From assembly GCA_017853575.1 (NCBI GenBank), contig JAFMJI010000006.1, positions 1 through 64,000 of the forward strand: a stretch of 64,000 nt of DNA, given 5' to 3'. How positions within the stretch are numbered: the first letter of the stretch is position 1; each line of letters opens with the position of its first letter. The position numbers were made by a program, and so were the translations under genes. This stretch comes from Chitinophagaceae bacterium (lineage in GTDB: Bacteria; Bacteroidota; Bacteroidia; Chitinophagales; Chitinophagaceae). The notes beneath the pieces were generated by a model, which saw only the letters and a list, made by a program, of their open reading frames with translations, had not been told where the DNA came from and did not search any database. Below are positions 35,575 to 46,637 of the stretch, one piece after another.

Positions 35575-36708
35575 TTGGAGGCTCGTTTTTTTATTCCTGT
35601 AAAAGCTTGTTTCTTTTTGATCGTGCTACTTCTTTCATTTGAAGGAAAAGGGCAGTTCAGAAAGTATTCCAATGAATTCATGAACATAGGTGCTGGAGCT
35701 CGTGGACTCGCTATGGGGGGTGCACAAATTGCAACTACAGAAGATGCCTATGCCGGATTCTGGAATCCTGCTGGACTTTCTGAATTGAGAGGACATTCTT
35801 CTTATTCTTTGATGCATGCTGAATATTTTGCCGGAATTGGTAAGTATGATTATTTCTCAACTGCCTCACCCATTGGAGATCCTGCCAAGGCAACCTCTGG
35901 CTTGGGCATCAGCGTGTTAAGATTCGCAGTAGATGATATTCCAAATACATTGTTCCTGGTAGAACCAGATGGAACCATCAACTATAACAATATTCGTTCC
36001 TTTTCATCTGCTGATTATGCAATGCTAATTTCATTTGGACAAACCTTGTTCAGTGATACTGAAAAAAATTTCTCATTCGGAACCAATGCAAAAGTGATTC
36101 ATCGCTCAGTTGGAAAATTCGCAAAAGCCTGGGGCGTTGGTTTGGATGCAGGGTTGCAATACAGGTCAGATAAAATAAGTTTTGGGTTAGTTGTCAGAGA
36201 TATTACCACAACATACAATGCTTGGCGTTTCTCATTTACTGACAAGGAAAAAGAGATGCTTTATCTTTCAAATAATCAAATTCCTATAAAGTCAGTTGAA
36301 TTGACTGCACCTCGTCTGTATCTAGGTGCAGCTTACAACTCTGATCTCAATGAAAAATTTTCAATCATGGGGGAACTCAATCTTGAATTGAGTTTTGATG
36401 GTCAACGAAATGTGCTGTTGAGCTCCAAAGTAATGAACATGGATCCTCGCATAGGAATTGAGATGAATTATGCCAAAACCATTGCTTTGAGAATGGGGGT
36501 GTATAATTTTCAAAGAGGATTGAAGGATGGTGATACAACGAATCTTTCTAAAGTATGGATCTATCAACCTGGTGTTGGCGTGGGATTTAATATTAAGCAA
36601 TTCAGAATTGATTATGCATTTACCAACCTGGCCAATCAATCAAACCCATTGTATACCCATGTGTTTTCATTGCATCTGAGACTTCCAACCAAAAAGTATA
36701 TTTATTGA
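35575..36708 (+). CDS. PorV/PorQ-family outer membrane protein
   Basis: This 377-residue barrel protein has a signal peptide ending EGKGQ (about residue 26). The mature part begins SNEFMNIGAGARGLAMGGAQIATTEDAYAGFWNPAGL, a PorV/PorQ/UPF0164 (FadL-like) hallmark, and ends in a strand rich C-terminus. In T9SS, PorV carries cargo to the sortase PorU, and here the next gene encodes a PorU-like sortase, starting 4 nt before this stop. No upstream in-frame ATG exists, so a TTG start at 35575 is used. Confidence 0.82.
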   Translation: MEARFFIPVKACFFLIVLLLSFEGKGQFRKYSNEFMNIGAGARGLAMGGAQIATTEDAYAGFWNPAGLSELRGHSSYSLMHAEYFAGIGKYDYFSTASPIGDPAKATSGLGISVLRFAVDDIPNTLFLVEPDGTINYNNIRSFSSADYAMLISFGQTLFSDTEKNFSFGTNAKVIHRSVGKFAKAWGVGLDAGLQYRSDKISFGLVVRDITTTYNAWRFSFTDKEKEMLYLSNNQIPIKSVELTAPRLYLGAAYNSDLNEKFSIMGELNLELSFDGQRNVLLSSKVMNMDPRIGIEMNYAKTIALRMGVYNFQRGLKDGDTTNLSKVWIYQPGVGVGFNIKQFRIDYAFTNLANQSNPLYTHVFSLHLRLPTKKYIY

Positions 36709-39700
36709 TGCTGAAGAAATTATCTCATATCATTTTATGCTTTTTTATTTTGGAGTCAGTTCATGCCCAAACTGATTTTGGCAACGAATGGATCAAGGAC
36801 TTCAGCAAAAAATATTACAAGATTCAAGTAGGGAAAGATGGTCTTTACAGGATTGGTTATGATGTTCTAAAAAAACTGGGACTTGAAAACACCAATGCAG
36901 ATCATTTTCAGCTTTGGAACAATGGCGTTGAGTTACCTATGTATACTACTCAGTCAAATACAACATTAAACCCTGATGGTTTTCTTGAATTCTTTGGAAA
37001 AATGAATGATGGAAAGTTGGATACAAAAATGTATCAGAACCCTAAATACCAAACTTCTGATAAATGGAGTTTATTGACAGATACGGCTGTATATTTTTTA
37101 ACTACGAATCAATCCTCCGTCAATCTCAGATATGCAGTTAAAACAAATAGTTCTTCCACCAGTAACCTCACTCCAGAAGAATATTTTAATTATACCTATC
37201 GCTATGCTTTCAAAGATCAAATTAATCCAGGCAGTCCGAATGTAATCGCGGGCGTAAATGTTTACTCTTCAAGTTTTGATGAAGGTGAGGGCTGGACAAG
37301 TCGAGGAATTACTTCATCAAATGCTCTTAAACTTACCATTTCAAACCTACAAGTATCATCGAGTGGACCTGATGCAAGTATGCGGCTTAATTTTTTTGGA
37401 GGTTCGTTGAACACTAGACAAGTCAGTGTTCAAATTGCTGGAAATTCAGTAATCAATTCATTTCCACTTGCAGGATTCAGCAGCAAAGACACAACTGTTC
37501 AAATAGTAAAGACAAAACTAGCCGGATCGTTTACGATGGACATTATCAATGCAAGTTCTTCTGTATATGATCAGTACATGGTCGGACAATTAGAAATAAA
37601 CTACCCTAGAAAATTTGATTTTGGGGGAGCAGCAAATTTTGAATTTTCAATAGAACCAAGTTCATCAGATAAATTAATTGAGATAACATCATTTAAGTTT
37701 GGTAGTAATGCATCAATACTTTATGATCTAACAAATCAACAGCGATATGTAGCCGAGATTAAAGGAAATAATCTAAGGTTCTTGGTTCCAGCCAATTCCC
37801 AGAAAAGAAACTTCGTTTTGATGAGTGTTGATGTTGATGAACTAAATACAGTTGGAGCAATTGTTGAGCATAAATTTATAGACTTTTCTAATCTCTCAAA
37901 TCAGGGGGATTATATCATCATCACTGATTCGATGCTTCGAAAAAGTAAAGCAGGGGATGCAATTGAAAACTACAAACAATATCGTTCGGGTGCTGCTGGT
38001 GGGAATTTCAACGTGTTGGTTGCCGATGTTTCACAAATAACTGATCAGTTTGCTTATGGGATCAAGAAACATCCGCTGGGAATTAAAAAGTTTATTCAAT
38101 TTGCAACAGTATTCTTCAAGCCTAAAGATATTTTACTAATAGGGAAGGGAGTGACATATGATCAATTTCGTATCAATGAATCTTCAGTCTATGCTAATAA
38201 ACTAAATCTAGTTCCAACTTTTGGAAGTCCAGCCTCCGATCATATCCTGGCATCCAATGAATTGGGACCAATTGCACAAATTCCGATAGGTAGGTTATCC
38301 GTCATCAATGGAGACGAGCTGAATGCTTATTTGGAAAAGCTCAAGCAACATGAAGATCTTATGAGTACAGGATCATCATACCAGACTGTTGATAAAAAAG
38401 GTTGGACCAAGAATGTATTGCATTTGGTTGCAGGTGGTGTTGTTCAGCCGGTAGTAACTGGATATATGAATGATGCAGCCAAAAAAATCAAGGATACATT
38501 GTTTGGCGCAAAAGTCACATCGATCGAAAAAACAACAGCTGCCTCAGTTGAATCAGGAAATAATACGCAGATTGATCAAATGTTTGAAAATGGATTGGGT
38601 ATTGTGAATTATTTCGGTCACTCATCTTTGAATTCGATGGAATTCAATTTGGATGACCCTGCACGTTTTAACAATCCAGGCAAGTATCCACTTTTTCTAG
38701 CTAATGCTTGCACAGCAGGGAATAATTTTTTCTATGATACTTTACGTATTCTTTCAAATAAAAAATCAATTTCAGAGGCGTATATCCTTGAGCCACAAAA
38801 GGGAAGTATTGCATTCGTAGCGAGCACACACTATGGAATTTTGATGAACCTGAATGATTTCGTACAAAGATTTTATGATCGTTTGGGTAAGCTAGATTAT
38901 GATAAAACATTAGGAGAAATTCATCAGAGAACCATGACCTCGCTCCAGAAAGACTTTGGTAATTCACCCAACAATCTTACTACAATGGAACAAATTTTGC
39001 TGCACGGCGATCCAGCAACAAAATTATATCCGCATCCGAAATCAGATTATGTGATTGAAGACCCATTGATCACTGTTGCTCCACAACCACTGACCATCGC
39101 AGAGTCTTATTATGATGTAAAGGTTGTTGTACGAAACATCGGACTAGCCCGAAATGATTCCGTAAAAGTTACAGTAAAAAGAGATCGCCCAGATGGCTCA
39201 AGTGAAATACTCTCCAGTAAGTTAATGGCGCTTAATTATGGTGATTCAATTCAGTTAAAATTCCTGCTGGATCCTAAAAAAGATTTGGGGCAACAGACAA
39301 TTGCTGTTACTGTTGATCCTGATAATTTAATTGATGAAGTGAGTGAATCAAACAATACAGTGACAAAAAAAATAAATGTTCTAGATAATGATATTAAGCC
39401 TGTATTTCCTACAGACTTCGCTATAGTTAATAAATGGCCTGTTAAGCTTTCCGCCAGTATCGGAAATTTCTCTGCATCAGGTGCTCAGTATGTTTTTCAG
39501 GTTGATACAACTTCAAACTTTAATTCCCCGATATTGGATAGCACCCTCGTTTCATCTAATGGAGGACTTATTGAGTATTTACCCAATATTAGAATTGCAG
39601 ACAGCACTGTTTTATTTTGGCGTGTAGCAAAGAAGCCAAGCGCCGGAATATCTTATAATTGGTTTTCTTCATCTCTTGTATACATATCAAAATCCGAGGA

Positions 39701-41759
39701 AGGCTGGAATCAGTCGAGCTATTATCAATTCCTGAAAAATCAGGTTACAAATTTTGAATTTGATCAGTCAAGGAATTTAAATTTTTCAAAAAAGAATCTC
39801 ACGTTGTATGTTCAGTCAAAATTAAAATCAACCACAACTTCTTACAACTCAGTTGAAGTGGGTAACAATGTGGTATACAATCAAAGTTGTGATGCAGCAT
39901 TTGGAACACTTGAATTTTCTTTGATCACGAAACGAACAGGAAAACCCATCAAAAACACCACACCTCCAGCTGTATCCAAGTTTTCGAGTTTCGTGCCTGC
40001 TGCATGTTTTTTAAATACAGATTTGTATCAATACTGGTTTAATTATAACTCACAACAAGGAAGAAATGATGCAGCTAATTTCTTTAATTATGTTCCTAAC
40101 GGAACGCTTCTGGTTTTAAATCACTGGAATAAAAAAGAGGATAATACGCTAAAGACAGTTGATCAGTGGAACAAAGACGCATTGTATAACAAACTTATTT
40201 CTGTTGGTTTTACACTGATTGATTCGTTTAAATCCAATCTTCCTTTCAGCTTGGTAGCATATAAAAATGACCTTGGAGAATGGAGTCTTCTTCAACAGAA
40301 AATTGGTAAGAGCTCAAGCGATGAATTGTCTGTTGAGCAGGCATTTGAGGCCATTGAAACTTCTGGAAAAATGAGCTTCCCAATAATTGGACCTGCCAAA
40401 AATTGGAAATCCATTTCATTGAATATGAAGTCACTTGAATCGCCAACGGATGATAATTCAACGTTGGAAATTACAGGCGTTGATAACAATTTAAGAGAGA
40501 CACAACTTTACCTGGGATCTATCGTCAAATCTGCTATGTTGTTTTCAAAGGATACAACACTGTCGTTTATAGATGCATCAAAATATCCATGGATCAAGTT
40601 CACGCTTTATCAAAATGATGCAACGAAACAAACTCCATCCCAGATTAAATATCTTCAAGTAAAGTATGAGCATGTTCCCGAGGGTGCATTGGGTGATGTT
40701 GCAAATACTACATTGATTTCATCCATGGATAAGGGGAGCAATTATCAGTTTCAGGCAAGTTTTAAAAATATCAGCAACACGGCTTTTGATAGTGTTAAAG
40801 TAGTTTGGAAAATTACCGATGATAAAAACCGTGATTCCATTTTATTTGATGGACTCAAGAAAAAATTAAATTCAGGAGATACCATTCAGTTCAGCAGGAC
40901 GCTTGATACGAGAAAACTTTCAGTTAATAATTTAATCTCGCTCAGTGTGAATCCTCAAAATGCTCAGCCAGAGCAATTCATGTTCAATAATTATTTGCAA
41001 ACGAAGTTAAGATTGATAGAAGATGCCATCCCACCCATATTGGATGTCACTTTTGATGGGGTACATATTCTTAACCGTGATATCGTATCATCGAAGCCCC
41101 AGATTTTGATTGAATTGAAAGATGACAATGCTTTTCTTCCATTGAACGATACAGCGCTCTTCAACATTCGGTTAAGATATCCTGATGGCATTATCAGGCA
41201 AATAAGATTTGATGGAGATACGTTGAAGTTTAGCCCTTCCAGCAATCCTCCTGGAGGAAATAATAATACGGCTGTCATCAATTTCAAACCTTTGCTGAGA
41301 ATGGATGGAGAATATGAATTGTTGATTACTGCAAAAGACAGAAGTGATAATGCATCAGGAGCAACAGATTTCAGTGTATTGTTTCAAGTGGTGAATCAAT
41401 CCATGATCACCAATCTGCTCAATTATCCAAATCCATTTACAACTTCAACTGCTTTTGTTTTTACATTAACCGGTTCTGAATTGCCAACCTATATGAGAAT
41501 TCAAATCTTAACCATCACGGGTAAGATTGTGAAAGAAATTTCAATGGCTGAATTGGGCCCCTTGAGAATTGGCAACAACATTACTGAGTATAAATGGGAT
41601 GGCCGAGATCAATATGGACAATTACTCGCAAACGGTGTTTATTTATATAGGGTTATTACGGATATCAAAGGAAAGAAAATCGACAAGCTGAGTGCAGGCT
41701 CTTATAATACTGATCAGTATTTCAAAGCCGGGTATGGAAAGATGTATCTGATGAGATAA
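36705..41759 (+). CDS. porU: PorU-like T9SS sortase (C25 cysteine peptidase), long form
   Basis: A 1684-residue secreted protein (signal ending VHAQ). The N-terminal region resembles the PorU pro-part (KYYKIQVGKDGLYRIGYDVLKKLG), then a gingipain-like C25 peptidase domain follows with candidate catalytic H639 in NYFGHSS and C669 in ANACTAGN. Immunoglobulin/CARDB-like domains come next (about 781-890 and 1340-1440), and a C-terminal FlgD-like/T9SS sorting-type domain (NYPNPFTTSTAFVF...ANGVYLYRV). PorU attaches cargo to lipopolysaccharide. This protein is much longer than the ~1150-1300 residues of canonical PorU, matching a PorU2-like form. It overlaps the PorV-like gene by 4 nt; the lasso cluster begins 9 nt after it. 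Confidence 0.85.
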   Translation: MMLKKLSHIILCFFILESVHAQTDFGNEWIKDFSKKYYKIQVGKDGLYRIGYDVLKKLGLENTNADHFQLWNNGVELPMYTTQSNTTLNPDGFLEFFGKMNDGKLDTKMYQNPKYQTSDKWSLLTDTAVYFLTTNQSSVNLRYAVKTNSSSTSNLTPEEYFNYTYRYAFKDQINPGSPNVIAGVNVYSSSFDEGEGWTSRGITSSNALKLTISNLQVSSSGPDASMRLNFFGGSLNTRQVSVQIAGNSVINSFPLAGFSSKDTTVQIVKTKLAGSFTMDIINASSSVYDQYMVGQLEINYPRKFDFGGAANFEFSIEPSSSDKLIEITSFKFGSNASILYDLTNQQRYVAEIKGNNLRFLVPANSQKRNFVLMSVDVDELNTVGAIVEHKFIDFSNLSNQGDYIIITDSMLRKSKAGDAIENYKQYRSGAAGGNFNVLVADVSQITDQFAYGIKKHPLGIKKFIQFATVFFKPKDILLIGKGVTYDQFRINESSVYANKLNLVPTFGSPASDHILASNELGPIAQIPIGRLSVINGDELNAYLEKLKQHEDLMSTGSSYQTVDKKGWTKNVLHLVAGGVVQPVVTGYMNDAAKKIKDTLFGAKVTSIEKTTAASVESGNNTQIDQMFENGLGIVNYFGHSSLNSMEFNLDDPARFNNPGKYPLFLANACTAGNNFFYDTLRILSNKKSISEAYILEPQKGSIAFVASTHYGILMNLNDFVQRFYDRLGKLDYDKTLGEIHQRTMTSLQKDFGNSPNNLTTMEQILLHGDPATKLYPHPKSDYVIEDPLITVAPQPLTIAESYYDVKVVVRNIGLARNDSVKVTVKRDRPDGSSEILSSKLMALNYGDSIQLKFLLDPKKDLGQQTIAVTVDPDNLIDEVSESNNTVTKKINVLDNDIKPVFPTDFAIVNKWPVKLSASIGNFSASGAQYVFQVDTTSNFNSPILDSTLVSSNGGLIEYLPNIRIADSTVLFWRVAKKPSAGISYNWFSSSLVYISKSEEGWNQSSYYQFLKNQVTNFEFDQSRNLNFSKKNLTLYVQSKLKSTTTSYNSVEVGNNVVYNQSCDAAFGTLEFSLITKRTGKPIKNTTPPAVSKFSSFVPAACFLNTDLYQYWFNYNSQQGRNDAANFFNYVPNGTLLVLNHWNKKEDNTLKTVDQWNKDALYNKLISVGFTLIDSFKSNLPFSLVAYKNDLGEWSLLQQKIGKSSSDELSVEQAFEAIETSGKMSFPIIGPAKNWKSISLNMKSLESPTDDNSTLEITGVDNNLRETQLYLGSIVKSAMLFSKDTTLSFIDASKYPWIKFTLYQNDATKQTPSQIKYLQVKYEHVPEGALGDVANTTLISSMDKGSNYQFQASFKNISNTAFDSVKVVWKITDDKNRDSILFDGLKKKLNSGDTIQFSRTLDTRKLSVNNLISLSVNPQNAQPEQFMFNNYLQTKLRLIEDAIPPILDVTFDGVHILNRDIVSSKPQILIELKDDNAFLPLNDTALFNIRLRYPDGIIRQIRFDGDTLKFSPSSNPPGGNNNTAVINFKPLLRMDGEYELLITAKDRSDNASGATDFSVLFQVVNQSMITNLLNYPNPFTTSTAFVFTLTGSELPTYMRIQILTITGKIVKEISMAELGPLRIGNNITEYKWDGRDQYGQLLANGVYLYRVITDIKGKKIDKLSAGSYNTDQYFKAGYGKMYLMR

Positions 41760-41768
41760 AATATTTTT

Positions 41769-42884
41769 ATGTGTGGAGGGGACGCGGGAACCATTTTCAA
41801 ATGGTTACTTGATGATGTTGTGAGCAAAAATATTGAAGAATCAACCTTGCTTGACTGGGAAGCTAGGCACAGGGTTCTTTTATATCCTTTCATTCTTGCA
41901 AATAAGAGAAAATTATTTTCAGCAGATTTTTTAAAATTATGCAGATCCAATTATCTGAAAAATTATGCGCAGGTCTTACAAGTAGAACACTTCCTCCAAA
42001 ATTTCAATGAATTTCTTTCCGCTCATTCTTCTCATGCAATTGTATTGAAGGGTGTTCCCGTTGCAGAAAATTATTATCCTGATAAATTTACACGGCATTC
42101 AAGGGATGTCGATGTGTTGGTTGAACAACATCAAGTCGATTTTATAGCAGAATGGCTAAAGCTTGAAGGATTTCACTTGGATAGTGATTATTTTTTGTAC
42201 AATAAAAAACAGCAAGAAGTTTTCTTAAAAAACAATCATCATTTTTGCTTTCATGGAACAAATGAAAGGCTTCCTTTGATTATAGAATTGCATTGGAAGC
42301 TCAGATCCAATGAAGATATCTGCAATATCAATCCTTTTGATAAAGGATATTCGTGGTTGAAAACATCTTATGATCATCTGTTTACCTTACATCATATCGA
42401 TCAATTCATTTATCTATGTGTACATGGTACTGAGCATGGATGGTATCGACTGAAATGGTTGTCGGATCTGCCATTTTTATGCCAAAGGATCAATTTAGAA
42501 TGGAATTGTGTAAAAGCCCGTGCCCATGAATTGAATGCGCTTGAGCATGTTGAGCTTTCTCTTTATTTGATTCATCATTTCACAGGGAAAATATTAATAC
42601 CGGGTACTGAAATACATTCATTTAATAAAGACATCAAAATAAAAGTATCCAAATTGCTAAGTCGAATCAATCAATCTGCTCTTATTGAAACTGGTTACCT
42701 GGCGGCAGTTCGACAAATTTTGTTTCTGTCCTCATTTAACAATAGAAAATGGAGTTTGAATTTTTGGATGAAGTGGTCGATATCTCCAGCTGATTGGAAA
42801 AGTTTTCCACTGCCGAATTGCCTATTCTTCCTTTATTATCCAATGCGACCAATTTTTTGGTTAATTAGAAAATCATTCAGATGA
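41769..42884 (+). CDS. Nucleotidyltransferase of the lasso-peptide cluster (NTP_transf_5-like)
   Basis: The 371-residue protein has a nucleotidyltransferase signature: VLKGVPVAENYYPDKFTRHSRDVDVLVEQ, with LKG (93-95), a conserved arginine and the metal-binding DVDVLV (113-118). Such proteins recur beside lasso-peptide and PqqD/B2 genes and some are reported to act on a phosphoserine at the end of the precursor. It is the first gene of the cluster, 9 nt after the PorU-like gene, and its ATG overlaps by 4 nt with the kinase gene that follows. Substrate here is inferred. Confidence 0.8.
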   Translation: MCGGDAGTIFKWLLDDVVSKNIEESTLLDWEARHRVLLYPFILANKRKLFSADFLKLCRSNYLKNYAQVLQVEHFLQNFNEFLSAHSSHAIVLKGVPVAENYYPDKFTRHSRDVDVLVEQHQVDFIAEWLKLEGFHLDSDYFLYNKKQQEVFLKNNHHFCFHGTNERLPLIIELHWKLRSNEDICNINPFDKGYSWLKTSYDHLFTLHHIDQFIYLCVHGTEHGWYRLKWLSDLPFLCQRINLEWNCVKARAHELNALEHVELSLYLIHHFTGKILIPGTEIHSFNKDIKIKVSKLLSRINQSALIETGYLAAVRQILFLSSFNNRKWSLNFWMKWSISPADWKSFPLPNCLFFLYYPMRPIFWLIRKSFR

Positions 42885-43777
42885 AATTCTTGAATTATTG
42901 GGCATATGGGTTGAGGGTGGCCTCCGAAATGGAATTTCCTGAATTGTACACTAGGTTTGAAGATGGAATACCTGATCTGCGTATTCATCTTCGTAGTATA
43001 AATTTATTGGAAGGAAAAATTGATCAAAATGCAACTTATTCATTTAAATCTCACAACAATATATTTTATGTTCATGTTAAGTCGGTCGCATTTTATGAAA
43101 TTTCCAATGGTATTAATATTACCATTTATCCATATCAAGATGCTCTGATTTCTGACATACGCGTTTATTGTTTATCGAATGCATTTGCTGCAGCACTTCA
43201 TCAAAGAAAAATCATGCCACTGCATGCAGGCGCAATTAGAAATAATGATAAAATTTCATTGATCATGGGGAATACTGGTTCAGGTAAATCCACTTTGCTT
43301 TATCATTTAATGCAAAAGGGATATAAGGTTTTCTCTGATGATGTCGTAGTTGTTTCTACCAGGAAAGGTAGTAATGAAACGAGTGCAACTTCTTCATATC
43401 CCATGATGAAATTATGGAAACATCAAATGAAAGGTATGGGTTTGGATAATGGGCAACAGGTTAGAAGTGGAGTAGATAAATTTCCTTTTTTATTTCATGA
43501 ACAATTTGATATTCATGCTCGAAAAATCGAGAAAATAATCATCTTAAAAGTTGTTTCGGGGCTAACTACATGTACTGTTCGAAAACTGAAAGGAATTGAG
43601 AGTGTGATCTTGTTATTCAACCAGATTTATAGAAAAGAATATTTAAATAGAACTGACTATATTTCTTCTTTATCGCTTTTGTCGTCAATGGCAAATAATA
43701 TTCCTTGTTATGAAATCAGCCGTCCAATGTTTCATTCAACTGAAATTGAGCTTGCAAATCTTTTCACCAAAATCTGA
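42881..43777 (+). CDS. HPr-kinase-like protein (predicted precursor-peptide serine kinase)
   Basis: The 298-residue product has the HprK C-terminal kinase fold: LHAGAI (H115), a P-loop GNTGSGKS (130-137), and DD (153-154) in the GYKVFSDDVVVVS segment. It lacks the phosphoserine phosphatase features of true HprK and no PTS gene is nearby. Relatives (PadeK/ThcoK type) phosphorylate the C-terminal serine of lasso precursors, and the candidate precursor here ends in serine. It starts within the last codons of the nucleotidyltransferase. A hairpin lies at its end (43774-43799). Confidence 0.85.
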   Translation: MKFLNYWAYGLRVASEMEFPELYTRFEDGIPDLRIHLRSINLLEGKIDQNATYSFKSHNNIFYVHVKSVAFYEISNGINITIYPYQDALISDIRVYCLSNAFAAALHQRKIMPLHAGAIRNNDKISLIMGNTGSGKSTLLYHLMQKGYKVFSDDVVVVSTRKGSNETSATSSYPMMKLWKHQMKGMGLDNGQQVRSGVDKFPFLFHEQFDIHARKIEKIIILKVVSGLTTCTVRKLKGIESVILLFNQIYRKEYLNRTDYISSLSLLSSMANNIPCYEISRPMFHSTEIELANLFTKI

Positions 43778-43856
43778 GAGAAAAATATCATTTTCTCAGG
43801 GTTTATTCTGATTATGTAAATCATTTATTCTTTTCATTTGCACTTAATTTAGGGAA

Positions 43857-44129
43857 ATGAAAAAACTGATAAAGAACAATTTACTGGATGGGGTAAAAGT
43901 TTATGATGAAGTATTTATGGTAGATCTGGAAGCAGATAAGTATTATGCCTTAAATCCCACGACAGCTTATATCTGGGACTTGATCTACATGCCGGTCAGT
44001 GTTGAGGAATTGAAGCAAAAAATACTTCAACGGTATAATGTCGATGAAAATATTGCAACAAATGCTTTGGAAAATATATTAAAAGAGATGATAAAAAGGA
44101 AAATGATTATTGAGTGTATTGAAGAGTGA
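43857..44129 (+). CDS. PqqD-like lasso-peptide B1 leader-recognition protein
   Basis: The 90-residue protein is a PqqD/RRE domain: VYDEVFMVDLEADKYYALNPTTAYIWDLI, then a helix-turn-helix-like tail. In lasso systems this B1 domain binds the precursor leader and delivers it to B2. The 80-nt gap upstream suggests it starts a second translational block B1-B2-C-A. Its stop is 1 nt before the B2 start. Confidence 0.9.
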   Translation: MKKLIKNNLLDGVKVYDEVFMVDLEADKYYALNPTTAYIWDLIYMPVSVEELKQKILQRYNVDENIATNALENILKEMIKRKMIIECIEE

Positions 44130-44130
44130 G

Positions 44131-44553
44131 ATGCTCAAGAAAAAAATTCTGTTGATTACATTGCTACATTTAATTGTATTTATATTTATACAGCTATTTT
44201 CTTTTGTCAGGGTATTGAAAATCCTCAACTATTTTCGACACACATCAAGCGATGATTTTTCTGGAAAAGATGTATACGGATTGGCAGAATATTATCATAG
44301 AATTATTACATTATCGCATTTTAAAAATCCAAGTTGCTTAGAGGTAGCATTGATGTTGACCTTCTTGATGAATAGGCGAAATGTTCCAACTGAATTTTGT
44401 TTAGGCATTGCACGATTAGATGGCAGTTTGACGGCTCATGCATGGTTGACATTTCGGGGGAAACTATTGGGGCAACCATTTCAAGCTGATGAATTCCTAC
44501 AAGTTTTCTCATCATCCAAAATAAGTCCAATTGAAGTTTGCAGGAAGTTTTGA
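44131..44553 (+). CDS. Lasso-peptide B2 leader protease (transglutaminase-like)
   Basis: From ATG 44131 (1 nt after B1) the protein is 140 residues with an N-terminal hydrophobic segment (6-28). The transglutaminase-like core shows C69 in NPSCLEVALML and H103 in TAHAWL, the Cys-His pair used to cut the leader in ATP-assisted B2 maturation. Upstream TTG at 44110 lies inside B1 and is not preferred. The end overlaps the cyclase TTG by 23 nt. Confidence 0.88.
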   Translation: MLKKKILLITLLHLIVFIFIQLFSFVRVLKILNYFRHTSSDDFSGKDVYGLAEYYHRIITLSHFKNPSCLEVALMLTFLMNRRNVPTEFCLGIARLDGSLTAHAWLTFRGKLLGQPFQADEFLQVFSSSKISPIEVCRKF

Positions 44554-46228
44554 TGGCAATTTGTTATCTGCGCTGAATGGAGAAATTGTTCAACAAGATG
44601 GATTGCAATTGCTTGGTTGTGTTGAATTATATCACCGGGATGAATTAAGCGATCAACTGGGCATCAGACATATTGATTTACACAATTATTCTGATGTTGT
44701 GTTGGTGCTATTCGCGTACAAAAAATGGGGTAAGAACTTTTTCAAATATTTGTACGGCGCTTGGTCATTTGTGCTCTGCGATGTCGACAATAAAGTACTT
44801 CTACTATCACGCGATCCTTCAGAGAACAGTAGTTTGTTTTATTTGTTCAAGGGGCATACATTGTTTTTTTCGAGTTTCACGACTTTCTTCAACGACAGCA
44901 CTTTGTTTGATCTTGAAATTGATCGAGATGAATTTATACGATTGAGTCTTAGGCTTGTTGGAAATTCAAGAGGTAAAACAATTATCAAGGAACTACACAA
45001 TCTTTGTCCTCAATCCTTTTTAATATGTGATGCTGAAATGCATATAGAAAGCGTTGAATTTCTACAGGAAGTAATTCCTGTTGTAAGATTTAAAAAGGAG
45101 AAAGATTATTTCCTGCAATTCAGGTCATTGATGGCTGAAGCAGTCATGTGTCGACTTCGTGGCGCAAATAGACCAGGTATATTCTTGAGTAGCGGATTGG
45201 ATTCTACAACAGTTTGTAGTTTCTTATTAAAATCATCTGATCCAGGTAAAATTATCCATACATATACAAGCGTTCCCAATTTTATTGATGAACATGATAA
45301 TCTGGATAGTGTATCCGAGCTGCCATTGGTTGAATATTTCTTAAAAAAGTTTTTAAATGTAAAATCTTCTTTTCTCCAATTCCCCAATGCTTTATTAGAT
45401 GCTCAATTCAAGAATGCTGACATTTTAAATCTTTTCAACCCAATTATTCATTCAAACAGCTTTTGGTTGAAAGGGATACTTGAACAAGCAAGATCTGATG
45501 GAGTTGATAGGATGTTCACGGGTCAGATGGGGAATTATTCAATTTCATTCAAAGGACAGCAATCTTCTTTGTCTTTATCCATTTCAAGATGGATGAATTA
45601 TATCTTTTCAATGTTGTTTGGAGATTATCATTTCAAAAAGCAGCAATGGAAATATTCTGTAATTCGAGATGATTTGATAAGCAGTTTGAGCAAATCGAAA
45701 TCTTTCAAAGCTGAATTTAAACTGGGGTATAATCATTCTTTGTGTACTTCAACATTCAGGAAAAAAGCATTTAAAAAAATTCATCGATTTGCATCTGTAC
45801 AATGGTCTCTGCTGGGGCATGAGTTCGGAATTAGGGTGGTAGATCCCACTTGCGATATTAGATTGATGAATTTCCTGGACTCGATTCCTTCAACCATCTT
45901 TAATCGAAAAGGGATATCTAAATATCTTTTGAAGCAAGCCATGTTAGGGATTCTTCCAAGCAGAATTTTATTCAATCGAATTCCTAAGCCACAGTCTGCA
46001 GATATTGGAAAACGCTTAGAAAGGGAGAATTTTCTATCTGATATTGTTGATAATCTGTTTGACAAGTATAAAAATTCCAATTTCTTTGATGTGAGAAAAT
46101 TGAAGGCTATACACGTGCAATTGATGGCAACTGGGAACAAACAACAGCAACATGTATTGAGCTTTCATTTATTGTACATGATTTCAATGATAAACTGTTA
46201 TGATCAATTACACGGAGCAAGGACCTGA
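44531..46228 (+). CDS. Lasso-peptide cyclase C (asparagine-synthetase-like)
   Basis: The 565-residue protein has an AsnB-like fold: a degraded N-terminal Ntn domain (MKFAGSFDGN) without the catalytic Cys2, so no glutaminase, then an ATP-pyrophosphatase PP-loop SSGLDS (220-225), and a C-terminal domain. This is the lasso C enzyme that adenylates the ring Asp/Glu and forms the macrolactam with the core N-terminus. It starts at a TTG overlapping B2 by 23 nt; an in-frame stop lies three codons upstream, so no ATG is available. Its end overlaps the precursor gene by 29 nt. Confidence 0.88.
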   Translation: MKFAGSFDGNLLSALNGEIVQQDGLQLLGCVELYHRDELSDQLGIRHIDLHNYSDVVLVLFAYKKWGKNFFKYLYGAWSFVLCDVDNKVLLLSRDPSENSSLFYLFKGHTLFFSSFTTFFNDSTLFDLEIDRDEFIRLSLRLVGNSRGKTIIKELHNLCPQSFLICDAEMHIESVEFLQEVIPVVRFKKEKDYFLQFRSLMAEAVMCRLRGANRPGIFLSSGLDSTTVCSFLLKSSDPGKIIHTYTSVPNFIDEHDNLDSVSELPLVEYFLKKFLNVKSSFLQFPNALLDAQFKNADILNLFNPIIHSNSFWLKGILEQARSDGVDRMFTGQMGNYSISFKGQQSSLSLSISRWMNYIFSMLFGDYHFKKQQWKYSVIRDDLISSLSKSKSFKAEFKLGYNHSLCTSTFRKKAFKKIHRFASVQWSLLGHEFGIRVVDPTCDIRLMNFLDSIPSTIFNRKGISKYLLKQAMLGILPSRILFNRIPKPQSADIGKRLERENFLSDIVDNLFDKYKNSNFFDVRKLKAIHVQLMATGNKQQQHVLSFHLLYMISMINCYDQLHGART

Positions 46229-46349
46229 TGACAAGTTAGCGTGGATAGAGCCTGAAATATTGGACTTAGATATCAGAGAAACGAGTAAAAACTTTATACA
46301 GTGTGATGGTATAGGGGTGCCAGGGGAGGATTATGCTTGTTTTTCCTGA
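46200..46349 (+). CDS. Candidate lasso-peptide precursor (A)
   Basis: A 49-codon ORF too short for usual gene lists. It starts with ATG inside the cyclase gene (29-nt overlap). The leader has the W-x-x-P-x-I-x-x-L-D-I-x-E-T pattern (W15, P18, L23-D24-I25, T28). Cleavage two residues before the core (T at -2) would start the core at K30 with D36 at position 7; starting at S29 gives an 8-residue ring and at T28 a 9-residue ring. Core cysteines are C35 and C47, and the last residue is S49. It carries no other acidic residue within 6-9 positions. Context (B1-B2-C directly upstream) is the strongest support. Confidence 0.8.
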   Translation: MINYTEQGPDDKLAWIEPEILDLDIRETSKNFIQCDGIGVPGEDYACFS

Positions 46350-46382
46350 TGCGTAAGGCCTAAAGTTTTATTTCATATTGAT

Positions 46383-46413
46383 TTTGGTGAAATCAAGTCT
46401 TTCTTTATCTTTG
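46383..46413 (+). promoter_or_regulatory. rpsU promoter
   Basis: TTTG (46383-46386), 19 nt, then TATCTTTG (46406-46413), an excellent match to the Bacteroidota promoter, 27 nt before the rpsU start. It separates housekeeping rpsU from the lasso cluster. Confidence 0.75.
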
Positions 46414-46439
46414 CAATCCTTAAAAACTGGAGAAACTAT

Positions 46440-46637
46440 ATGTTAATCATCGATTCAAAAGATTGCGAAAACATTGACAAGGCACTAAAGAAGTACAAGA
46501 AGAAGTACGAAAAAGCGAAAACTCTTTTGCAACTTCGTGAGCGTCAATCATTTACAAAACCTTCTGTGAAACGCAGGGGTGAGGTGCTTAAGGCAATCTA
46601 CAAGCAAAAGATCCAAAACGGAACAATCGAGGCATAA
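46440..46637 (+). CDS. rpsU: 30S ribosomal protein S21 (bS21)
   Basis: The 65-residue basic protein has the S21 pattern: N-terminal DKALKKYKKKYEKAKTLLQLRERQSFTKPSVKRR. It binds near the anti-Shine-Dalgarno end of 16S rRNA. In Bacteroidota bS21 helps occlude the anti-SD, which fits the weak SD sites seen in this window. Confidence 0.96.
   Translation: MLIIDSKDCENIDKALKKYKKKYEKAKTLLQLRERQSFTKPSVKRRGEVLKAIYKQKIQNGTIEA

Follow-up and report, generated by a model that had tools for sequence, protein, structure and literature searches.

A small precursor gene in last place of a probable lasso-type RiPP operon in Chitinophagaceae, and a Lys-Asp spacing rule in the cores of its genus

Canonical lasso peptide clusters place the precursor gene (A) first, and the leader of paeninodin carries an aromatic-x-x-P...T signal. 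Graspetides, a second family relevant here, are cyclised by ATP-grasp ligases and use Lys as a side-chain partner in their macrolactams. To our knowledge, all characterised lasso cyclases close the ring on the alpha-amine of residue 1. The available parts of three sources are consistent with alpha-amine closure at that residue (PMC13352647; PMC9266682; PMC12670498). The described systems closest to the locus presented here are those of the paeninodin/pseudomycoidin type, which have a kinase, with or without a nucleotidyltransferase, and a split B1/B2. According to the accessible portion of one paper, lasso kinases carry His-Lys-Asp-Asp and modify the C-terminal Ser, and the pseudomycoidin nucleotidyltransferase PsmN adds a hexose to the phospho-Ser (PMC9266682). 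Class III lasso peptides are defined by one ring-to-tail disulfide, and side-chain macrolactams are the hallmark of graspetides, again as far as the excerpts of these sources go (PMC13352647; PMC9266682; PMC13097080).

The DNA analysed here, referred to as the window throughout, is a stretch of 64,000 nucleotides (64 kb) from a Chitinophagaceae bacterium. The original prediction placed an unlisted lasso-peptide precursor gene of 49 codons at 46200-46349 on the forward strand, and the ORF is present as described (product MINYTEQGPDDKLAWIEPEILDLDIRETSKNFIQCDGIGVPGEDYACFS). As had been claimed, it shares 29 nt with the end of the cyclase ORF, its leader has W15, P18, L23-D24-I25 and E27-T28, and B1, B2 and C lie upstream. 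Pfam models of all three are over their cut-offs. Just upstream of B1 are kinase and nucleotidyltransferase-like genes that the prediction had not included. The operon order in the window is NTP_transf_5, HprK-like kinase, PqqD/B1, B2, C and A, followed by rpsU and a xer-type recombinase gene (xer assigned by eye). The features are as follows:

41769-42884, + strand: NTP_transf_5 nucleotidyltransferase-like protein (PF14907 1.1e-35, above cut-off)
42881-43777, + strand: HprK-like kinase (TIGR04352 4.4e-10 and PF07475 8.9e-5, both below cut-off)
43857-44129, + strand: B1, PqqD-like leader-binding protein (PF05402 6.7e-13, above cut-off; NF033536 2.7e-11, below its cut-off)
44131-44553, + strand: B2, transglutaminase-like leader peptidase (PF13471 5.3e-12 and NF033537 lasso_biosyn_B2 1.4e-12, both above cut-off)
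44531-46228, + strand: C, asparagine-synthase-like cyclase with the PP-loop LSSGLDS kept (PF00733 1.6e-19, above cut-off)
46200-46349, + strand: precursor gene A, 49 codons plus stop (homologues and codon-level conservation)
46200-46286, + strand: leader, codons 1-29 (W15, P18, L23, T28), W-to-T distance 13, predicted cut after S29
46287-46346, + strand: core KNFIQCDGIGVPGEDYACFS, identical in five genomes, fits the Lys-Asp +6/+7 rule
Core residues, + strand: Lys1 at 46287-46289, Asp7 at 46305-46307, Cys6, Cys18 and C-terminal Ser20
46440-46637, + strand: rpsU, right-hand neighbour outside the cluster

The B2 ORF is open from a TTG at 44110 and its start is uncertain. The window cyclase scores below the cut-off of NF033535, the lasso-specific NCBIfam cyclase model. 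The LSxGxDS motif is kept in the 14 genus cyclases that were read, none of which has a Cys at position 2. No transporter gene was found in the window operon, and no ATP-grasp family appears among the matches listed for the seven proteins at 41769-46634 (for the kinase, the best 25 of 28). The precursor itself matched no family in Pfam or NCBIfam. It is, however, the only ORF in the window to match a strict leader motif (W-x2-P-x-[LIVM]-x2-L-x4-T plus a core of 10-45 residues), whereas 60 windows simulated on its dinucleotides averaged 0.03, so that no better candidate, which would have counted against the prediction, emerged in the 64 kb. A second hidden precursor in the window was also considered and rejected, as the strict motif finds this ORF alone and a loose leader motif stays near background (10 matches against 6.6 per simulated window). 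The cut after S29 is inferred from the rule that Thr occupies position -2, as given in the part of the metanodin paper at hand (PMC12670498). A core starting at C35, with a nine-residue C35-E43 ring, was rejected, as it would put the Thr at -7 and could not be transferred to relatives (judged by eye).

The window is like the paeninodin/pseudomycoidin type in having B1, B2, C, an HprK-like kinase with His-Lys-Asp-Asp (by eye, the His of PLHAGA, the Lys of GSGKST and the Asp-Asp of FSDD) and a C-terminal Ser, and its leader shares the aromatic-x-x-P...T of paeninodin. The likeness to the paeninodin type drawn in advance holds up in the leader, and also in the kinase and in the Ser at the C-terminus. 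The window also has a nucleotidyltransferase-like gene as in pseudomycoidin (PMC9266682, in its available part), although homology to PsmN was not compared. It differs from this type in placing A last, in conserving two core Cys, in having no transporter gene in the operon and in that its genus follows a Lys-Asp rule instead of joining residue 1 to an Asp or Glu at 7-9. With class III (BI-32169, 9401-LP1) the window would share a single ring-to-tail disulfide, C6-C18, if a K1-D7 ring closes, but the sequence, the kinase, the seven-residue ring and the Lys at position 1 are unlike class III. In most genus members the first Cys would lie in an N-terminal tail outside the proposed ring, an arrangement that fits none of classes I-IV as set out in the accessible parts of two sources (PMC13352647; PMC9266682). 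The proposed Lys-Asp ring would resemble graspetides in being a side-chain to side-chain lactam; unlike graspetides, the window has an asparagine-synthase-like cyclase together with B1/B2 and a lasso leader. Citrulassin has Leu at residue 1, so the range of first residues is wider than any short set of examples. Lys1 after the T-x cut lies outside the examples G, C, S, A and N (metanodin) found in the available text of PMC12670498, and this is a weak criterion as these are examples only. Metanodin, as described in the same portion of that paper, is like the window in that its precursor gene needed manual curation, in its T at -2 and in an unusual residue 1, but it has Asn there with normal position-one closure and comes from a gammaproteobacterium (PMC12670498). 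No Lys-closing lasso cyclase was described in the titles and abstract openings among the listed matches to open-licence PMC papers on Lys, side-chain or isopeptide closure, which is not proof of absence, and a search of the open-licence PMC literature for lasso peptide together with Sediminibacterium had no match.

Using the 49-residue product as query, strong matches (E 1.3e-18 to 3.6e-17) were obtained in 4 of 197 other genomes (G013, G022, G024 and G039). All four belong to the genus of the window, a set of 41 genomes with its own included, and carry an identical core. With the cyclase as query, 17 of 198 genomes gave matches of E 2.3e-40 or better, and these all belong to the same genus; weaker matches are probably ordinary asparagine synthases, although they were not verified singly. 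The relatives are mostly MAGs. The cluster lies at one site, in the order tyrS (minus strand), a gene just under the PorP/SprF cut-off, Peptidase_C25 (porU-type), nucleotidyltransferase, kinase, B1, B2, C, A and rpsU. A small leader-bearing ORF directly follows the cyclase in all 15 genomes in which the cyclase-to-rpsU stretch is readable (the window, G013, G024, eleven further C-to-rpsU gaps and G030); contig ends interrupt this stretch in G006, G026 and G036, which are not counted. The prediction would have been refuted by the lack of a conserved small ORF at this position, and the opposite is seen. It had also called the last place of A unusual, and A is last in the window, yet A-last is the rule in these 15 loci. 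Ten genomes of the genus in which no clear cyclase was found (G005, G007, G015, G019, G020, G023, G028, G032, G033 and G040) have no leader-bearing ORF within 1.3 kb upstream of rpsU; the stretch in G014 is interrupted by a contig end. Two of the lasso criteria are satisfied, namely B1/B2/C genes beside the precursor and a leader with aromatic-x-x-P and, at the predicted cut, Thr at -2. Judged on sequence comparison, 46200-46349 is a real gene, the precursor (A) of the B1-B2-C cluster. The claim of a lasso precursor thus stands for the precursor, through position and leader in 15 of 15 genomes, but lasso topology has not been demonstrated and the cores of the genus do not follow the rule that joins the N-terminus to Asp or Glu, fitting instead a Lys-Asp rule that the prediction had not noticed.

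Some variation surrounds this site. G011 has an opposite-strand ABC transporter gene between the nucleotidyltransferase and the kinase, and its A is separated from rpsU by a riboflavin synthase gene; several relatives have a nucleotidyltransferase-kinase gap of similar size, which is not seen in the window, G024, G008, G025 or G026. The porU-type protein (35575-41759 in the window) is matched only weakly in G022, G039, G016 and G037, as if lost en bloc with the peptide cluster. The link is not strict, as G032 has a strong porU-type match without a cyclase being found.

All five genomes of the window clade share one and the same 20-residue core, although 5-13 of its 20 codons differ in each pair; every difference is synonymous, with 0 amino-acid changes. 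The W-to-T distance is 13 in all five members, and the leader ends in Ser in three of them and in Thr in the other two. By contrast, the enzymes are only 31-49% identical among the three identical-core genomes that keep them. Identities to the window in G024 and G013, respectively, are 46% and 49% for C, 31% and 35% for B2, 35% and 44% for B1, and 44% and 42% for the kinase (the latter partial, as the G013 contig begins inside the kinase gene); those for xer are 72% and 75%. That the core is frozen although its enzymes have diverged so far suggests that the peptide has a partner that is itself conserved, for example a signal receptor, and is not caught in an arms race. Recent horizontal transfer as the cause of the frozen core was rejected, as the 5-13 synonymous differences that separate the 20 core codons of each pair argue against it.

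A wider comparison covers 15 distinct precursors, namely that of the five-genome clade (counted once), the eleven ORFs from further C-to-rpsU gaps, G030, G037 and contig C240 of the G024 bin. These were picked by leader motif and position and not by Lys or Asp; however, the Lys-Asp spacing was spotted on these 15 cores and then tested on them, so the tests are after the fact. The cores are also related by descent, and for two of them (G037 and C240) the locus has no cyclase. Pairwise identity between cores has a median of 27%, with G025/G030 at 68% and G018/G037 at 52%. The first T at least 11 residues past the W sits at exactly 13 in all 15 precursors, and every core ends in Ser. Exactly two Cys are present in 14 of the 15 cores, C240 having none. 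Counted from the T-x cut, there is a single Lys in every core (0 of 50,000 pool permutations), a count that rests on that cut, since in G037 a further Lys directly precedes it. An Asp is found at Lys+6 in 11 cores and at Lys+7 in the other 4. When residues were shuffled within cores, this +6/+7 spacing occurred in a mean of 2.3 of 15 cores and in all 15 in 0 of 100,000 shuffles. Lys-Asp at +6/+7 ranks first when all 400 residue pairs are compared over 15 pairs of neighbouring offsets (15 against at most 12 in 60 shuffles), and the rule holds in 12 of 12 cores without G030, G037 and C240. The normal expectation of Asp or Glu at core position 7-9 after the T-x cut is met in 6 of the 15 cores, which is chance level (permutation mean 5.6). 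The Cys also show a pattern relative to the Lys: a T-x-to-Lys segment of at least 5 residues has exactly one Cys inside (11/11), whereas with a shorter segment both Cys lie downstream of the Lys (3/3 cores with Cys).

We consider it likely that the window encodes a lasso-type RiPP operon of the order nucleotidyltransferase, kinase, B1, B2, C and A, in which the ring pair across the genus would be Lys(i)-Asp(i+6/7) and the amine would most likely be that of the Lys side chain, given that the pairing is found wherever the Lys falls in the core. What the sequences themselves show is the gene and how it is conserved, the spacing within the leader, and the rules for Lys, Asp, Cys and Ser. In the pathway that we propose, where cut site, bond, disulfide, phosphorylation, threading and activity are all inferred, B1 would bind the W-P-L-T leader and the HprK-like kinase likely phosphorylates the C-terminal Ser of the precursor, which the nucleotidyltransferase may decorate further. 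B2 would then cleave after T28-S29, and C would activate Asp7 with ATP and couple it to Lys1, giving a seven-residue ring. Cys6 and Cys18 could pair as a ring-to-tail disulfide. Across the genus, the 0-12 residues before the Lys would remain as an N-terminal tail. The spacing of 6 or 7 implies a ring of seven or eight residues, which if closed through the Lys side chain would have 26 or 29 atoms, compared with 25 or 28 in an ordinary lasso ring of eight or nine residues. A seven-residue lasso ring has 22 atoms (PMC13352647, from the part available). In the window the N-terminus rule and the Lys-Asp rule both give K1-D7 and, the Lys being residue 1, this peptide offers no way to distinguish closure through the alpha-amine from closure through the epsilon-amine.

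A bolder form of this proposal, for which we see an even chance, is that of a lineage of asparagine-synthase-like cyclases that would join the side chain of a single, usually internal, Lys to Asp in a ring of seven or eight residues, with a free N-terminal tail tied by disulfide to the C-terminal tail, a topology outside lasso classes I-IV and a precursor that selection also keeps in species without the cyclase. If a Lys-closing lineage is true, the recognition of precursors would change, since Asp or Glu at 7-9 is what is normally expected; the N-terminus would be freed for extension and a new enzyme for Lys-Asp stapling would be at hand.

The same Lys-Asp spacing would result if B2 cleaved right in front of the one Lys, however far that lies from the T, such that the Lys is residue 1 and closes through its alpha-amine to give canonical lassos with rings of seven or eight residues. 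We regard this as unlikely, although it deserves to be kept in mind; the Lys-Asp ring is common to it and to the preferred explanation, and our estimates for the two overlap. It would need only canonical ring sizes and no new chemistry, the T-x cut already precedes the Lys in the window clade, and having one Lys per core would prevent a second cut. Against this, the T is fixed and the Lys follows 2-14 residues later, which would demand a floating cut, and one of the two conserved Cys would be lost in 11 of 14 cores. As the longer T-x-to-Lys segments hold one Cys and the shorter ones none, this stretch appears to remain part of the product, which favours a side-chain nucleophile over a floating cut.

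An ordinary lasso, cut at T-x with the N-terminal alpha-amine closing on Asp or Glu at 7-9 (K1-D7 in the window, with a class III-like C6-C18), would leave the Lys rule to another cause, for example a salt bridge or a folding charge. D7 is rightly placed for this in the window core, and the 6 of 15 genus cores that fit the normal rule count against the Lys-Asp ring. The normal rule also fits 12 of 17 cores from other Bacteroidota loci, which were chosen by eye with the position of the T a matter of judgement (especially in G517, G596 and the proteobacterial L268), as well as a candidate in G212 outside the 17. It fits the cores of a Flavobacteriales relative (A1-D9) and a proteobacterial relative (A1-D8), both with more distant cyclases, and other parts of the phylum have cores that start with Lys and carry Asp at 7 or 9 (G644, G590 and G573). 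Within the genus, however, the normal rule performs at chance whereas Lys-Asp is met in 15 of 15, and we think an ordinary lasso distinctly unlikely. A motif search at 45 Bacteroidota B2 loci, whose matches supplied the 17 comparison cores, left many without a convincing precursor. In another family, precursor-like ORFs lie near B2-type genes in G478 (L203 5519-5641) and G512 (L204 6560-6679), and their cores have no Asp or Glu at 7-9 and no Asp anywhere.

Some precursors of the genus stand at loci without the full set of enzymes. G022 and G039 have lost everything between tyrS and a point inside C, with the same junction in both, and a cyclase remnant is left, shorter in G022 (by a further 58-nt gap) than in G039. 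The precursors beside these eroding remnants are intact:

L032 8242-8394: orphan precursor of G022
L033 7940-8098: orphan precursor of G039

These two genomes represent well separated species, as xer differs in amino acid at 16% of codons. Their A genes have 14 synonymous and 3 other codon differences, and codons 14-50 contain 11 substitutions with 0 amino-acid changes, where 7.8 would be expected (0 of 20,000 simulations). The orphan precursor in G022 and G039 is kept under purifying selection. No B1 or B2 above cut-off was found genome-wide in either bin (87% and 84% complete), nor any complete cyclase, only the G039 remnant beside A. With the enzymes dropped from the locus and the precursor kept, the role of the peptide is directly testable in these species. 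G037 (L246 3457-3606) has an intact A adjoining tyrS, with a core unlike that of the window clade; there is no B1, B2 or cyclase on its 6.4-kb contig and no cyclase match in the genome, an 82% complete MAG. Contig C240 of the G024 bin (L250 3635-4260) carries a truncated gene of the type found upstream of porU, an intact B2 and then the Cys-less precursor. No cyclase or B1 was seen on it, and it is possibly a contaminant (bin contamination 7%). In G016 (L249 4191-4610) a precursor remnant forms an in-frame fusion with the first part of the gene that lies upstream of porU, and its core is frameshifted (by eye); it is the decayed counterpart of the intact orphan precursors.

Since G022, G039 and G037 keep a precursor without a cyclase being found, the ring may not be essential. 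For the orphan precursors we can offer no firm explanation beyond two options: the peptide may work unmatured, or its enzymes may be encoded at another place in the genome. Taken to its end, this line of thought would have the peptide need no maturation, any longer or ever, and act in linear or disulfide-closed form with the cluster optional. The deletion junction common to G022 and G039, their unchanged precursor residues and the missing enzymes there and in G037 all speak for this, but we find it improbable. The three genomes are incomplete and the genome-wide look excluded the kinase and nucleotidyltransferase, the leader motif is also retained, which suggests that a leader-binding enzyme still acts, the G016 remnant is frameshifted, and the ten genomes that lack the cluster have no such ORF upstream of rpsU either. 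That the ORF between cyclase and rpsU is a chance frame and no gene might be entertained because short ORFs are common (101 of at least 30 aa overlap the surrounding 12 kb), but it is refuted by the synonymous-only core changes in five genomes and the purifying selection in G022 and G039, alongside the fixed leader spacing and constant position.

Beyond the genomes compared above, a contig search with the window cyclase alone gave no relative, and one with a 14-sequence cyclase alignment (A1) gave 16 loci. By title these are 8 Chitinophagaceae bacterium, 4 other Chitinophagia, 2 'uncultured bacterium', 1 Flavobacteriales and 1 proteobacterium, and the sample names of some presumably point to lakes (Erken). 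The G025 row of alignment A1 continues into the precursor because cyclase and precursor are in one frame. At L264 (3968-6076) one open frame of 702 aa spans cyclase and precursor, which may mean a fusion of enzyme with substrate or an internal start of A at MNNNLETW.
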